From NCBI RefSeq assembly GCF_000313565.1, contig NZ_HE578924.1, positions 404,233 through 456,888 on the forward strand: DNA of 52,656 nucleotides, given 5' to 3'. The notes under the pieces were generated by a model that was not told where the DNA came from, searched no databases, and was given only the letters and a program-made list of their open reading frames with translations. Positions 23,260-52,450 of the stretch are shown here, piece by piece. The stretch comes from Dielma fastidiosa (GTDB lineage: Bacteria > Bacillota_I > Bacilli_A > Erysipelotrichales > Erysipelotrichaceae). The translations under genes and the position numbers were made by a program. Each line of letters begins with the position of its first letter. The first letter of the stretch is position 1.

Positions 23260-27548
<4,289 letters not shown>

Positions 27549-28423: not shown

Positions 28424-28972
28424 ATGAAAAAATATGTAATTGCATTTTTAATCTGTATTTATACGACAATATTAGTACCAATTTTAATTTCTGATATACC
28501 TGATTCAGTTAGTACGCTTTTAAATATTACCCTGATAGCTGCTGCAGTTTTAGGTATTCTCTGCATGATTGCATTATTTAAAAGCATCAAGGAGATACTC
28601 CAGACTCCTAAACAGCAAGATGAATTAAATAATCTTGCCTTGTTGCTGAAAATCGCTGTACTGCCTGTCTATGCTTATACCACGCTGATTGGTATCGGTG
28701 CTGGCACGATTATGATGATCTTCCCCGGCATGATATTCCTACTGCCTTTAATTTACGCCATAGTGACAACTTTGCTGTGCTTCTTGTTAGTCATTACCTC
28801 AAGCTATTCAATTGCCTGCATCTATGTTCACTATCGAAACGGTATCTTCTCACTTAAAAAGACTATCCTGCATGTGATTTTACAAGTAATCTTTTTTATC
28901 GATGTGATCGATTATATTTATTTGTTTTTCAACATCAGAAAATGCCGAAAAGAGTTAATTGATTTTGCCTAA
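28424..28972 (+). CDS. Small integral membrane protein of unknown function
   Basis: A 182-residue protein with about five hydrophobic segments (5-23, 33-53, 72-92, 95-125, 145-165) and a basic C-terminal tail. I do not recognise a family. It is a lone gene, divergent from the PTS operon and convergent with the PRD regulator. Ribosome site GGGGAAA is weak but at the right distance. Codon use looks like that of its neighbours and a clear terminator follows, so I consider it a real gene. Confidence 0.7.
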   Translation: MKKYVIAFLICIYTTILVPILISDIPDSVSTLLNITLIAAAVLGILCMIALFKSIKEILQTPKQQDELNNLALLLKIAVLPVYAYTTLIGIGAGTIMMIFPGMIFLLPLIYAIVTTLLCFLLVITSSYSIACIYVHYRNGIFSLKKTILHVILQVIFFIDVIDYIYLFFNIRKCRKELIDFA

Positions 28973-35942: not shown

Positions 35943-35951
35943 TGATATAAT
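35943..35951 (+). promoter_or_regulatory. Extended -10 promoter reading into the invertible segment
   Basis: TGATATAAT is a perfect extended -10 (TG-N-TATAAT). No strong -35 is seen 17 bases upstream (TGTCGT), as is common for extended -10 promoters. Transcription would start near 35958, cross the left recombination site and enter whichever gene is next to it. It lies outside the segment, so it would not move on inversion. Confidence 0.6.
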
Positions 35952-35976: not shown

Positions 35977-35996
35977 AGGATAATATATGATTATCT
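35977..35996 (+). repeat. Left inverted recombination site of the invertible segment
   Basis: AGGATAATATATGATTATC is found here and, inverted, at 39408-39426. The site itself has two inverted arms (GGATAAT and ATTATC) around an asymmetric 5-base core ATATG, the usual layout of a tyrosine-recombinase crossover site. The asymmetric core gives the site its direction. Confidence 0.85.
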
Positions 35997-36020
35997 GGCA
36001 TAATACTTAGGAGGGGGAAT

Positions 36021-38354
36021 ATGGATTTTGATGAAACTGATTATATACAGCAAATAAAAAAACTTTTAAATGATTTAGATAATAAAGATCAAAGAATATT
36101 CAAAATAAAATTTTCAAATGCATTTAGAAAACCCCTAGACATTGAAACTAGATTTCTAGTCAATAAATATAAAGTTATTAAATTCTCGGATTTATATAAT
36201 AAACGAATTGACTATGCTACTAATTCAATACAAAGTAAACGATACTTTTATACCAATTTTATTTTTAATCTCGCTGGACTGATACCAAGTATTGGTACTT
36301 ATATTTCTTTAATAACTTTGGTAACTGATTTCTCACAATATCAAGTTACGCAAAGTGATTTTCGGCATTTGCGAAAGACTCTCAATTTTCTACCAAAACC
36401 CGCAAAAAAATATCACAAATTAAGAAATTTAGTCCTTATACCCAATATTGAACAGCTCTCCCTTGAGGAAAAATTGTATTTAAGTTTTGTTATTCGCCTC
36501 ATTGAAGAGAAATACCTATCGCAAACTGCCATTTTGATAATAGAACCTATTGATAATGTCACAGATATAACTATTGCAAATAAGGGTATTGTGTATAAGT
36601 TTGATTTAAATAATTATACGCAGATTCTTCATGATAAGAAAATATATTCTTTAACACATGTATCCCGTGTAGTTTTGAATTCAATAGGCATTGATTACAT
36701 TGACAAAGTAAATCAAATTCTAAACGGAGAAAAAACAGAAGATTCTTACGAAGCAGTCATGACACAGATAATTCGTGAAATGATAGAGAATTCAAAACCT
36801 CAAAATAGTGACGATCTAAAACGGTTTATAACACTTTGTAGTTTCTTGTTCGAATCTTTTACAATTAATGATATTTCAGAAGCTGTTAATTTAGAAAAAA
36901 ATCCTCTGAATTGTGGGCTGGATGATGCAATGAAAACGAATATAATCTGTAAAGAAAAGCATATTCAAAAATATTTGTTTCTTGAGGAAAAAATCAGACA
37001 GTATTTTCAAGACTCTTCGTATATCTTTGAAGCAAATTTATATACAAATATCTATAATTATTTACAAAAAACTTACCCAAAGAATTATGCAGATATCGCT
37101 TTATTGTCAGGCGTGCTTCTTTCTGACGAAAATGAGATATTATCTAATTATTTGATCGCATTTTATCAGGAAGATATGACAATGCCAGGTTATAAACTTA
37201 ATGCAATTAGAAGTTATATAAAAAAATCCAATGACTTTGAAATAATACTACGCCTACACGATGCTTATTCAGAAGAACCGCAAAATCTTATGAATTATAG
37301 AGAAGATTGTCTAAAATTGCTCAGCCATATTGACGGAAGTGGTTTAAATAATTTCGCAAAAGCAGCGGCGATCAGTTATCCAGCAAGAGTATTATATGAA
37401 ATACATTCTGACTTTGCTGAACTTGAGGCTGTTGAAGAAACTTATCTAAAATATATAAATAAAATTGTAGATTTCGCTTCTGTGGATACCCGTATATACA
37501 AATATGTCCTTGATTATATTTCATTTACAACAGCAATAGAAAACAATAGCACTATAACTACAGTTGTTCAACGCTTAGTAACACTATTAAACACTATTGA
37601 GCCAGCAGAAGTCACTTCAGGGCAGTATGTGAAGTTTATGAGAATGGGAAATGCGGTTTATCCATCTGATCCTAAACAAGCTCTTATGATGACACAGAAA
37701 GCTTTTAATTCAAAACAAAAGCCAATAGAACAAGCACTATCAGGGATCAATTATGGTGTCTCTTTGTGTTTAAATGCTAGATATAGAGAGGCAGTTGAAA
37801 TTCTTTCAAATAATGATTTACGCACTGATGTAATAAATACAATTTCTGCAGACAATAACCTTTTATTGGCTCAATATTTTAATGGTAAATTTGATGCATA
37901 TAAGACTTTAACCGGTTATACACGTCTACTAAAAATAATAAAAAAAGTTGATAATAGTGATGCTATTATTGTTAAAAATAATTATTTAGCTCTATGTATT
38001 GTTTTAGAAAAGAAAAAGAATAGTCAACTAGAACAGAGTATTGTAAAATCTGCTGATAATTATCATATCTTCTTTTATCAAATTAATTTACTGACAGAAG
38101 CATTCTTGCAGCATGATCTTGCTAGATTTGAAAAAATAAAAAATGCTATTACTGTACCGAAACTCCTTATTGGCTATAAAAGCTTCATAAATAAAAGAAA
38201 TGATTTCTTAGCAACTAATTTTGATAAAAACATGACTTATCCAGAACTGGATAATTCTTTATATAATTGGAGCATTACCAATTATCCTGACAAATCTATG
38301 TTATTCTATAGCCATCCTATTATTTTAGGTTGCATTGAGCGATGGTTTGAATGA
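36021..38354 (+). CDS. Large helical protein of unknown function inside the invertible segment (STAND-like remnant?)
   Basis: A 777-residue protein that I do not recognise. Residues 77-105 contain a hydrophobic stretch (NFIFNLAGLIPSIGTYISLI) that may be a membrane segment or buried helix. Residues 134-176 read LRNLVLIPNIEQLSLEEK, a helix, then TAILIIEP. This resembles the Walker B and sensor part of STAND/AAA ATPases, but no Walker A GxxxxGK[ST] is present, so ATP binding is doubtful. From about 250 to the end it is almost all helical with TPR-like spacing (for example 540-620, YGVSLCLNARYREAVEIL), suggesting a protein-binding solenoid. There is no signal peptide. The ribosome site AGGAGGGGG sits between the left inverted repeat and the ATG. 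Its 3' end overlaps the ATP-grasp gene on the other strand by 30 bases. It is presumably expressed in this orientation. Confidence 0.82.
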   Translation: MDFDETDYIQQIKKLLNDLDNKDQRIFKIKFSNAFRKPLDIETRFLVNKYKVIKFSDLYNKRIDYATNSIQSKRYFYTNFIFNLAGLIPSIGTYISLITLVTDFSQYQVTQSDFRHLRKTLNFLPKPAKKYHKLRNLVLIPNIEQLSLEEKLYLSFVIRLIEEKYLSQTAILIIEPIDNVTDITIANKGIVYKFDLNNYTQILHDKKIYSLTHVSRVVLNSIGIDYIDKVNQILNGEKTEDSYEAVMTQIIREMIENSKPQNSDDLKRFITLCSFLFESFTINDISEAVNLEKNPLNCGLDDAMKTNIICKEKHIQKYLFLEEKIRQYFQDSSYIFEANLYTNIYNYLQKTYPKNYADIALLSGVLLSDENEILSNYLIAFYQEDMTMPGYKLNAIRSYIKKSNDFEIILRLHDAYSEEPQNLMNYREDCLKLLSHIDGSGLNNFAKAAAISYPARVLYEIHSDFAELEAVEETYLKYINKIVDFASVDTRIYKYVLDYISFTTAIENNSTITTVVQRLVTLLNTIEPAEVTSGQYVKFMRMGNAVYPSDPKQALMMTQKAFNSKQKPIEQALSGINYGVSLCLNARYREAVEILSNNDLRTDVINTISADNNLLLAQYFNGKFDAYKTLTGYTRLLKIIKKVDNSDAIIVKNNYLALCIVLEKKKNSQLEQSIVKSADNYHIFFYQINLLTEAFLQHDLARFEKIKNAITVPKLLIGYKSFINKRNDFLATNFDKNMTYPELDNSLYNWSITNYPDKSMLFYSHPIILGCIERWFE

Positions 38355-39392
38355 ATCTATCTGTGATAGAAAGCTTAGCAAAAGCAGAATGTATATAGAT
38401 TCTTCATTATTAAAAAATGCATTTTTAAAAAGATAATTGGTTGAACTGTGCGTCGATATAGTTGGATTAGGTCCAATATCTATAATATATGGTTTATTAT
38501 TTGATATTATAAAATCTATTCGCGAAATCCCTTTAAATTTCAGAGTATTTGCTACAGCGATACTTTGTTCTTGTATTTGATCGTTCAAATGGCTACTATA
38601 GTTTGAAAAATGATATCTTTCAAGCGCTACAGTATTATAATCAAGAAATAATGTATCAGGATCTTTTAATATCAAACAAGAACCTGGGCAAAAATAATCA
38701 TGATTGAAATATAATAATGGAACTTCAACTTCATCACCACACAGGAATTCCTGTATGCAAAATATAGTATATTTTTTTATGTAGTCTTGCAGCAAATTAA
38801 TTACGCTATTTCGAGTTTCGCTAGAAATATTTATTAGTTTGATACCAATTCCTGCTGATTCATCATTAGGTTTAACAAGATATTTTCCTTCATTTAAATG
38901 ATTAACTGTCATCGTAATTTCTTCGATTGAAGAAACAAAGATGGTAAAAGGGAAATGCAAATTTTTATTTTGACTGAGTATTTCATACATGGCTTTTTTA
39001 TTACCGCCTAGATAGCAGGATTGAAAGTCAGCATTAATATTACGAAAGTCTAGATAATCACATAGTAATGGAATAAGACACCTTCTACCAACACCGGTTA
39101 CATCTTGAGCCATGCTGTATACAAATACTTCCTTAAAATCATGCTTCAACATAGGTATGTTTTTAATAAATTCTAACTCACTTGCGAATGGTTTAACGAC
39201 TTTACAAACGCTTTCAAATGAATTAATAATCATATCTCTTTCTGAAGGCATAACGCATTCCGATATATGCAGTGTATCGTGTATTGAATCAGGGTTATTA
39301 TATACAAATGCTAGACACATATTTTTATCTATGATTGGTGAGTTTGTTAATGCATATGTATACATTTTTAATATTTTTTCCTTTGTTATCAT
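38325..39392 (-). CDS. ATP-grasp ligase related to D-alanine-D-alanine ligase, inside the invertible segment
   Basis: A 355-residue ATP-grasp protein of the D-Ala-D-Ala-ligase-like group, which joins a carboxylate to an amine using ATP. Features: a preATP region with YSMAQDVTGVGRRCLIPLLCDYL and SCYLGGNKKAMYEIL (90-138), the ATP Lys174 in YLVKPNDESAGIGIKL, Glu215 in IQEFLCGDEVEVPLL, and the metal region GISRIDFI and YIIDIGPNPTISTHSS. In standard Ddl the last motif has Glu-x-Asn; here it is Asp305-Ile-Gly307, so metal binding or substrate may differ. I start it at ATG 39392, which follows GGGGAGG. A longer reading from 39416 begins inside the recombination site. No promoter fits between its start and the terminator at 39437-39470, so it should be silent in this orientation. 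Confidence 0.85.
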   Translation of the reverse strand: MITKEKILKMYTYALTNSPIIDKNMCLAFVYNNPDSIHDTLHISECVMPSERDMIINSFESVCKVVKPFASELEFIKNIPMLKHDFKEVFVYSMAQDVTGVGRRCLIPLLCDYLDFRNINADFQSCYLGGNKKAMYEILSQNKNLHFPFTIFVSSIEEITMTVNHLNEGKYLVKPNDESAGIGIKLINISSETRNSVINLLQDYIKKYTIFCIQEFLCGDEVEVPLLYFNHDYFCPGSCLILKDPDTLFLDYNTVALERYHFSNYSSHLNDQIQEQSIAVANTLKFKGISRIDFIISNNKPYIIDIGPNPTISTHSSTNYLFKNAFFNNEESIYILLLLSFLSQIDSFKPSLNAT

Positions 39393-39405
39393 AAATCCTC
39401 CCCAC

Positions 39406-39426
39406 AGGATAATCATATATTATCCT
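39406..39426 (-). repeat. Right inverted recombination site of the invertible segment
   Basis: The reverse complement of 39408-39426 equals the left site (19 of 19 bases). Here both arms are perfect, GGATAAT (39407-39413) and ATTATCC (39419-39425), around CATAT, the complement of the left core. Beyond these bases the flanks of the two sites differ. Confidence 0.85.
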
Positions 39427-39436
39427 TCATTGAGGC

Positions 39437-39470
39437 AAAAAAAGATTCTGCCAAACCTGACAGAATCTTT
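39437..39470 (-). terminator. Terminator of the ABC-lipoprotein operon, insulating the right end of the switch
   Basis: AAAGATTCTG (39441-39450) pairs with CAGAATCTTT (39461-39470) around a 10-base loop, followed on the minus strand by seven T (39443-39437). It ends the operon coming from the right only 11 bases before the right recombination site, so that operon should not read into the switch. Confidence 0.87.
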
Positions 39471-39488
39471 TATAACTCTTCCCTATGA

Positions 39489-45260: not shown

Positions 45261-46005
45261 TTATAGTACTTTACTCAAAAACTCAATCGTTCTTGGATTC
45301 TTTGCATTCTTGAAAATATCCTCTGGTGTCCCCTGTTCGGCAATAATCCCGTCATCCATGAATAAAACACGATCACTGATTTCTCTGGCAAAGCCCATTT
45401 CATGAGTAACAATCACGATAGTCATCCCATTATCCGCCAGATCTTTGATTACCTCCAAAGACATCTTTAACCATTTCCGGATCAAGGGCACTGGTTGGTT
45501 CGTCAAATAACATTACATCAGGTTCCATAGCCATAGCTCTTACAATGGCAAGACGCTGTTTCTGTCCGCCTGATAATTTTCTTGGATATTCATCTGCCTT
45601 GCTTTCTAGCCCCACTTTTTTAAGCAGACGCATTCCCATTTCCGTGGCTTCCGCTTTTGACACTCCTTTTTCAAGAGTTGGCGTTATGGTAATATTCTCT
45701 AATACAGTAAGATGCGGAAATACATTAAAATGTTGGAAAACCATGCCGATTTTTTGCCGATGCTTGTCGATATTCAGATTTTTCGCTGCTATATCGACAC
45801 CTTCAAAGATAACTTGGCCGCTGGTTGGTTCCTCAAGTAAGTTCAAGCAGCGCAGAAAGGTACTTTTTCCCGAACCGGATGGACCAATGATTGACACAAC
45901 TTCACCCTTATGAATTTCTTCATTAATGCCTTTTAAAACTTGTAAATCACCGAAATTCTTACACAGGTCTTTTACCTGAATCAACGCCTGATTAATCACT
46001 GACAC
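45261..46005 (-). pseudogene. Amino-acid ABC transporter ATP-binding protein (GlnQ type), frameshifted
   Basis: The polar amino-acid ABC ATPase is split by one frameshift. The first part (46005 to 45430, 191 codons) has Walker A GPSGSGKST, signature LSGGQKQR and Walker [20 protein letters not shown], then goes out of frame. The rest continues in another frame from [22 protein letters not shown] to the end at 45261. One extra base in the AAA at 45457-45459 (TTT on the coding strand) explains it; without it the gene would encode 247 residues, the normal length. It may be a recent pseudogene or a sequencing error. The start overlaps the permease gene by 14 bases. Confidence 0.88.
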
Positions 46006-51343: not shown

Positions 51344-52450
51344 TTAATAACAGTTTTCATTAATAATTTTTACTAATTCATCTTCGGTTTCAAAGAAGAG
51401 ATGCGTATAAACACCAAGAACGGTTTCTACATTATCACCTAACCGTGAGGCTATGGCTTTAATGTTGGCACCTTTATTAATCAGAAATGAGGCGTGGGAA
51501 TGTCTCAGATCATGAATTCGGATTACCGGGACGCCAGCAAATTCAGCGTATTGTTTGAATAACACGCCGATATATTTAATTCCTAACGGCTGTTCATCAC
51601 CAAATACAAAATTGGTACGGGAGAAATTTTCTTCTTGGGAAACTCTGGCATAACGGTCTCGCATGATTTTAATCAGCATGTCCGGCATTTTTATCGTCCT
51701 GATGCTGTTTTTGGTTTTAGGGGGTGTAAGTTTATAAGGAATGCCTTTTAATTGCTGGGCGATTGTCTTATTGATTTTGACGGTATTATTATCAAAGTTG
51801 ATATCGTTCCAGTTCAAGGCAAGACTTTCCCCTTTTCGGCAGCCCATGAAGTATTGGAAATTATAGAAGCAATAGTAGCGGTTGTGTTTGTTCTGATCTA
51901 CGTTTTCTATGAAGGCCGAGAATTCGTCGTAGGTCCAGAAATGGATTTCCTCCTCGAGCTCATCGGGTCTTACCAGTTTGGCGACCTTATCTACCGGATT
52001 ACTTTCAAGCAGGTCTTCTCGCACAGCGTAGGCAAGTATTTTATGGGCAAGGCTTCTGATTTTATTTACATATGAAGTGCTGGCGCCGTTTTTCTCCATT
52101 TCGTCAAGGATGACTTGTATGGTTGCAGGTTTTATATCACACAAACATACTGGACGGAGACGAACGAGTTTTGTTAATCCGAATTTATCATTTTGAATGG
52201 TTGTACTTTTGCGCACGTTGCGGCGGTCTTCAAAGTAAATTTCGCAGAGCTTGCCGAATGTTACTGTGCTGCCCGTTCTTACCTCGTAGCGTTCCAGTTC
52301 TTTCTTCATTATGAAATTTTTTTCAAGGATGCGTGCATCTTCCAGACAGGTGCATCCCTTGGCTAATCGATTGTAGAATACACTTCTGCCGTCGGGTAGT
52401 GTGTATTTCCCTTTGTAGTAAAATTTATTATCCCTTTGATAAACAGACAT
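51344..52450 (-). CDS. Phage-type tyrosine integrase
   Basis: A 368-residue site-specific integrase. The N-terminal ~55 residues (YQRDNKFYYKGKYTLPDGRS) form an AP2-like arm-binding domain, a core-binding domain follows (60-165), and the catalytic part has Arg in FMGCRKGES, HDLRHSHAS (His, Arg) and the nucleophile Tyr in VLGVYTHLF. It resembles the integrases of conjugative transposons and prophages in Bacillota. The rest of any mobile element would have to lie beyond the right edge, because the genes to the left look chromosomal. GAGGAGG precedes the start. Confidence 0.92.
   Translation of the reverse strand: MSVYQRDNKFYYKGKYTLPDGRSVFYNRLAKGCTCLEDARILEKNFIMKKELERYEVRTGSTVTFGKLCEIYFEDRRNVRKSTTIQNDKFGLTKLVRLRPVCLCDIKPATIQVILDEMEKNGASTSYVNKIRSLAHKILAYAVREDLLESNPVDKVAKLVRPDELEEEIHFWTYDEFSAFIENVDQNKHNRYYCFYNFQYFMGCRKGESLALNWNDINFDNNTVKINKTIAQQLKGIPYKLTPPKTKNSIRTIKMPDMLIKIMRDRYARVSQEENFSRTNFVFGDEQPLGIKYIGVLFKQYAEFAGVPVIRIHDLRHSHASFLINKGANIKAIASRLGDNVETVLGVYTHLFFETEDELVKIINENCY

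Follow-up and report, generated by a model that had tools for sequence, protein, structure and literature searches.

As a rule, an inversion switch turns a promoter around or reshuffles portions of related genes. In the phages Mu and P1 the recombinases Gin and Cin invert the G segment and the C segment, respectively, which carry alternate tail-fibre genes, and in Campylobacter fetus the S-layer is subject to inversion at the sap locus. Here we describe a locus of Dielma fastidiosa in which the choice would fall between two unrelated whole proteins. It is part of a 52,656-bp stretch of DNA (contig NZ_HE578924.1, positions 404,233 to 456,888; referred to as the window in the following) and comprises a tyrosine recombinase gene and, next to it, a segment of 3412 bp which is enclosed by inverted repeats and contains two complete genes and none besides. 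One of them encodes a STAND-like TPR protein of 777 amino acids (aa), the other an ATP-grasp enzyme. The locus is very probably a recombinase-driven inversion switch, an either/or selector of two unrelated genes that is conserved across phyla.

The Mu G and P1 C segments resemble the locus in that a multi-kb inversion brings one of two opposed gene sets behind a fixed outside promoter. They depend on serine recombinases plus an enhancer and exchange homologous tail-fibre genes, whereas the window has a recombinase of the tyrosine type and pairs a TPR-like protein with an ATP-grasp enzyme. At the sap locus inversion likewise picks which of two opposed genes is expressed; there, a promoter segment inverts between homologous surface-protein genes, whereas in the window the genes would invert past a fixed promoter. 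The promoter invertons with tyrosine recombinases (Fim, capsular polysaccharides (CPS) of Bacteroides, C. difficile) share a recombinase adjoining short perfect inverted repeats, and they mediate phase variation. In these systems, for instance in the CPS invertons of the Bacteroidales (PMC12118408), a promoter of a few hundred bp flips one operon on or off, in contrast to a 3.4-kb two-gene segment. Recombinase-driven inversion at repeats also yields alternative proteins at the pneumococcal hsdS genes (PMC4948785; invertase PsrA, PMC11709252), where recombination takes place inside homologous genes and leads to chimeras instead of an exchange of whole unrelated genes. The PinQ/e14 P-segment inversion, which acts against phage T2 (PMC12529663), ties DNA inversion to phage inhibition, but with a serine recombinase and a chimeric protein derived from prophage DNA. 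No description of such a locus was found in the open-access literature searched for invertible elements together with ATP-grasp, tyrosine recombinases, STAND or anti-phage functions, and no paper in it combined invertible elements with both tyrosine recombinases and ATP-grasp enzymes; the survey of gene-altering inversions by Milman 2023 (cited in PMC11892184) lay outside this scope and may mention such a case. The module is apparently undescribed, while its mechanistic cousins are known.

For the window, an initial annotation had claimed an exact inverted repeat with inverted arms and an asymmetric 5-base core, a nearby tyrosine recombinase with complete catalytic set, and exactly two tail-to-tail genes between the sites, each with ribosome-binding site (RBS) and start just inside one end. 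All of this was confirmed (Table 1). The 19-bp repeat AGGATAATATATGATTATC at the left end recurs as its exact inverse at the right end, and both copies have the structure GATAAT-ATATG-ATTATC with 6-bp arms and a 5-bp core. The window contains no further match within three mismatches (0.05 expected from shuffles), and there is no additional copy at fewer than three mismatches in the whole genome. Only one other exact inverted pair of at least 17 bp with a spacing of 200-6000 bp is present in the window (AATTAAAATTGGTACTA, 17 bp, 26968-26984 and 28473-28489, spacing 1.5 kb), which is probably due to chance. The 777-aa gene starts 25 bp inside the left site, the ATP-grasp gene 15 bp inside the right site, and the 3' ends of both overlap by 30 bp. 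A longer open reading frame (ORF) for the ATP-grasp protein would start at 39416; this position falls within the repeat and is unlikely to be the true start. The recombinase gene lies 127 bp from the left site. Its product matches Phage_integrase (3.4e-42) as well as the SAM-like N domain, has the full catalytic set R...K...HxxR...H...Y and stays below the XerC/XerD equivalogs for chromosome-dimer recombinases (241.6 vs. a cut-off of 335.15 bits and 233 vs. 329.6 bits). It would be the enzyme that catalyzes the inversion.

Table 1. Features of the invertible locus, in window coordinates.
Feature	Position	Strand	Evidence or remark
Tyrosine recombinase, 309 aa, presumed invertase, reading away from the segment	34920..35849	-	Phage_integrase, SAM-like N domain
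Candidate fixed promoter, extended -10 TGATATAAT, directed into the segment	35943..35951	+	34 bp upstream of left site
Left recombination site AGGATAATATATGATTATC, arms GATAAT/ATTATC, core ATATG	35977..35995	+	Repeat search
RBS AGGAGGGG of the 777-aa gene, within the segment	36009..36016	+	Sequence
777-aa STAND-like TPR protein gene, predicted to be ON in the present orientation	36021..38354	+	
ATP-grasp gene, 355 aa, D-Ala-D-Ala-ligase-like, predicted to be OFF in the present orientation	38325..39392	-	
RBS GGGGAGG of the ATP-grasp gene	39397..39403	-	Sequence
Right recombination site, exact inverse of the left	39408..39426	-	Repeat search
Terminator-like hairpin, bidirectional, immediately outside the right site	39439..39471	.	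Folding energy

We propose that the tyrosine recombinase inverts the 3.4-kb segment by acting at its two inverted ATAAT-N5-ATTAT sites, and that transcription starts from a fixed promoter outside one of these sites and enters the adjoining gene. In the sequenced orientation the STAND-like TPR gene would be driven by the promoter TGATATAAT; once the segment is inverted, this promoter would lead into the ATP-grasp gene instead, and cells would alternate between two expression states. When the inversion was carried out virtually, RBS and start of the ATP-grasp gene landed directly behind this promoter, as GGGGAGG-ATTT-ATG.

Counting the window, 11 elements were identified in which such a gene pair is enclosed by perfect inverted repeats of 17-32 bp at the gene starts. 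The module consists of a gene for a STAND-like TPR protein, convergent with one for a D-Ala-D-Ala-ligase-like ATP-grasp enzyme, plus an XerC/D-like recombinase. Its hosts belong to Bacillota (genomes G117 with two elements, G117a and G117b, G088, G289 and G449, as well as two Paenibacillus elements), Alphaproteobacteria (one element in Methylobacterium) and Campylobacterota (two in Aliarcobacter). The elements of G289, G449 and G088 were found by profile searches, while the one of Paenibacillus SZ31, with recombinase, ATP-grasp gene, an 800-aa homolog of the 777-aa protein and a 25-bp repeat, came from a database scan with the ATP-grasp alignment. Plasmid searches yielded the elements of Paenibacillus IHBB 10380 (plasmid NZ_CP010977, 30-bp perfect repeat), Methylobacterium pMRAD01 (17 bp, perfect) and Aliarcobacter pACRY43158 (19 bp, perfect), and a further plasmid search the second Aliarcobacter copy. 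Several copies are plasmid-borne, and only few among several hundred sampled genomes carry the module; this sporadic occurrence is consistent with horizontal spread.

The segments measure 3.3-3.8 kb, with the exception of G088 (6.2 kb), where an extra ORF lies between both genes. In nine of the 11 elements the recombinase adjoins the segment; that of G088 is located on a neighboring contig and G117a has none. The sites are always inverted. The recombinase lies outside of them in every case, for which reason the repeat was rejected as a transposon end. The catalytic residues are kept in all nine intact module recombinases of the alignment. All sites match (G)ATAAY-N5-ATTAT(C), with cores that differ between elements. 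In G117, which belongs to a different family of the same order and was found by searches of relatives with each of the two proteins, both genes lie tail to tail between perfect inverted copies of GATAATATCAGATTATC, with the same arms and a different core; in the second element of this genome, G117b, which has an adjoining recombinase, a STAND-like gene converges on another ATP-grasp gene. Within the first two genomes searched, G000 and G117, the pattern GATAAT-N5-ATTATC is restricted to the module elements and one more site beside a G117 recombinase. Since three other genomes contain single occurrences at unrelated places, the pattern by itself is not diagnostic. A third site, GATAATCGTGTATTATC, is situated at L063 5730-5746, downstream of the G117b recombinase and outside its segment. 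In nearly all copies the gene starts sit just inside each site, and two copies contain an additional stretch of several hundred bases on one side. In G289 the RBSs and N-termini of both genes (MIRDELI...), outside the perfect 20-bp repeat, are near-identical (L069 8266-8310 and 11715-11760), the repeat continuing imperfectly into the two coding sequences.

When GTDB genome contigs were scanned once by pattern with the 777-aa protein, no match was obtained, and scans of viral contigs revealed no relatives. Two fragmentary ATP-grasp matches on fecal "phage" scaffolds (L095, L096) were left out of the element count. Many other ATP-grasp matches (E 1e-20 to 1e-40) look like ordinary D-alanine--D-alanine ligases (Ddl) or seem to stand in other contexts, such as fused proteins of 720-820 aa or surface-polysaccharide-like loci; they were excluded, as the inspected examples had neither recombinase nor STAND partner. 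Plasmid matches from Rhizobium, Sinorhizobium, Peptoclostridium and Thioflavicoccus did not represent the same module either. A decayed variant is found in G549:C4 (L102 204-6230), where a gene for a TIR-AAA_16-TPR protein is convergent with ATP-grasp and GNAT genes and a transposase-like ORF is inserted; a further copy of the site adjoins a transposase-like ORF (C4:20965), and the junction there contains an N.

Evidence for inversion is given by the orientation of the segments. The recombinase-proximal gene is of the STAND type in five elements (window, Paenibacillus IHBB, the first Aliarcobacter copy, G289, G449) and of the ATP-grasp type in four (G117b, Paenibacillus SZ31, Methylobacterium, the second Aliarcobacter copy). 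Opposite orientations occur between the two Paenibacillus elements, with recombinases 58% identical, and between the two A. cryaerophilus plasmids, with recombinases 61% identical. G117b and G088 share a recombinase flank of 97% identical DNA over 1015 bp and were assembled in opposite orientations. Moreover, in the G088 draft the segment forms a contig of its own, C54, whose first base is the exact outer boundary of the 25-bp repeat. The first 119 bases of C54 are exactly the inverse of the first 119 bases of C2, and its final 119 bases are identical to those at the start of C32, which begins at the inner repeat boundary. These overlaps represent two branch points, as an assembly graph would show them with the recombinase flank also joined to the ATP-grasp end. 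From the assembly itself, we read this as the signature of a mixed population with reads from both orientations. At the start of a G549 contig there is an inverted copy (134 bp) of recombinase flank and site, which may reflect mixed orientations or a true long repeat, and is not relied upon here. The initial annotation, which had proposed the two-gene selector, had named two findings that would speak against it: relatives that never show the opposite orientation, and relatives that keep the gene pair in fixed order without the site. Both came out in favor of the selector, since both orientations were encountered and every intact relative with gene pair and recombinase has a perfect inverted repeat at the gene starts. 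What the sequences show directly are the sites, the gene layout, the intact recombinase, the conserved module and both orientations in relatives.

The assumption of a fixed outside promoter found support as well. All six elements that have the site type of the window (window, G117a, G117b, G088, both Aliarcobacter) possess an inward-pointing extended -10 motif (TGnTA...T) outside exactly one site, at a distance of 16-38 bp. Shuffled sequences gave a mean of 0.87 and none of 500 reached six, with the motif and the 45-bp limit chosen post hoc, after a scan for -35 boxes; that scan, which used the generic sigma-70 consensus, yielded no excess. In the window the motif at 35943 faces the 777-aa gene, and on the right side of the element no comparable motif was found. 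The hairpin on this side folds with -18.9 kcal/mol (z -4.4) on the minus strand and -15.3 kcal/mol (z -5.3) on the plus strand and has a U-tract on each side. It is a predicted strong terminator and would shield the distal gene from read-through. With this arrangement, expression would be strictly of either gene and not of both.

Several observations weigh against so simple a picture. In the copies of Paenibacillus, Methylobacterium and G289 the recombinase gene is directed into the segment, its end lying no more than 50 bp from the site, and a near promoter motif was not found in them; here, recombinase and proximal gene probably share a transcript, and expression control is less clear. In elements with a recombinase gene of this direction, the gene on the recombinase side may also be transcribed. 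A further gene of G289 terminates 20 bp beyond the distal site, and in Aliarcobacter transcription may take place on both sides. Both orientations are seen across relatives and in the G088 assembly, not in the window's own strain, whose assembly shows one orientation only. Finally, G117a has a broken STAND gene and no adjacent recombinase, and in G117b the recombinase is broken and the ATP-grasp gene frameshifted; judged by these lesions, some copies of the module are dead.

For the 777-aa protein no confident match was obtained in Pfam, NCBIfam, PADLOC or PHROG. It shares homology (26% identity) with the 800-aa protein of Paenibacillus SZ31; the proteins at the position of the latter in other elements show GxxGxGKS/T and AAA_16/nSTAND matches. 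The partner proteins of about 800 aa mostly consist of a P-loop NTPase domain, with weak AAA_16/nSTAND-like matches, in front of helical TPR-like repeats. This P-loop occurs in Paenibacillus IHBB, Methylobacterium, both Aliarcobacter copies, G088, G289 and G449, and absent from the copies of the window, SZ31 and G117a; it is lost in the window copy and kept in most relatives, and the 777-aa protein does not qualify as a STAND NTPase. AlphaFold models of this protein and of the ATP-grasp protein, built from two-row alignments, reached a mean pLDDT of 38-39, and no fold searches were based on them.

The ATP-grasp protein of the window matches Dala_Dala_lig_C (3.2e-9) and ATP-grasp_3 (9.5e-9). 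Compared with the PDB, the profile of its family finds the D-Ala-D-Ala ligases as nearest family (4.2e-38); as a Ddl proper, the window protein reaches 47 bits vs. a cut-off of 245.65. The ATP-binding lysines, the G-x-E and R-x-D motifs and the D/E metal ligand are kept in the family. The metal motif E-x-N is replaced by DIGPN and the second metal ligand (Asn) is absent in nearly all members; because this Asn is mostly gone, the substrate likely differs from that of Ddl. In one Aliarcobacter segment (L068 5495-5920) a gene with an aminoacyl-tRNA editing domain precedes the ATP-grasp gene, a possible clue to the substrate, and in G549 the ATP-grasp gene is followed by the GNAT gene.

Across three phyla the gene pair, the structure of the sites and the type of recombinase have been retained, while the proteins have diverged to about 20% identity or less. 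This conservation of the layout despite protein divergence implies selection for the alternation as such. The reason for having an NLR-like protein or an ATP-grasp enzyme, but not both, in one cell thereby becomes directly testable, and the site pattern can be used for finding more such modules. From the sequences we infer catalysis by this recombinase, exclusive expression and, as a plausible role, one in conflicts such as phage or plasmid defense. As a functional refinement of the inversion switch, and not a competitor to it, the module could be a phase-variable system of defense or inter-element conflict, in which the STAND-like protein acts as an NLR-type sensor/effector that is costly when on, the ATP-grasp enzyme provides an alternative defense chemistry or a safe state, and inversion hedges the population. 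We regard this as possible, at somewhat less than an even chance. Most STAND partners keep the P-loop and the AAA_16/nSTAND-like matches ahead of TPR-like repeats, and the counterpart in G549 is the TIR-AAA_16-TPR protein. A Pycsar-type TIR effector is encoded near the Methylobacterium copy and an Abi_2 protein beside the G289 copy; several copies reside on plasmids, and segments differ wholly between 97%-identical flanks, as in fast-evolving conflict loci. However, none of the models in PADLOC-DB 2.0.0 matches the three window proteins, the 777-aa protein lacks the P-loop needed by an NLR-type NTPase, and no recognized defense neighbors were found at the window copy. Equally tentative is the wider picture of a cross-phylum, horizontally spread, phase-variable immune selector, which offers an NLR-like STAND/TPR protein or a ligase-type ATP-grasp enzyme in cassettes interchangeable between conserved sites.

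Recombinase and sites could also serve to swap or mobilize two-gene cassettes between replicons, with inversion as a by-product. Between the 97%-identical recombinase flanks of G117b (L063, G117:C1:208000-224000) and G088 (L070/L101, C54/C32) the segments are non-homologous except for their ends, and the window recombinase is nearest to those of G088 and Aliarcobacter while the window cassette is nearest to that of Paenibacillus SZ31. Given this incongruence and the unlike segments, cassettes do seem to have been exchanged between conserved sites. As the main function, exchange is nevertheless unlikely: the recombinase remains outside the repeats, excision would need direct instead of inverted sites, and gene starts just inside each site suit expression switching. 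Less likely still is a relic, i.e., formerly active sites at which inversion no longer occurs in the window; decayed relatives such as G117a and G117b would fit, but the window recombinase and both genes are full-length ORFs and both sites are identical.

Apart from the inversion switch, two further ORFs of the window deserve mention. An amino-acid ABC transporter ATPase frame at 45430-46005 comprises only 191 aa and is apparently truncated, possibly by a frameshift. A second integrase-like ORF of 368 aa (51344-52450) lies near the contig end and is apparently unrelated to the switch.

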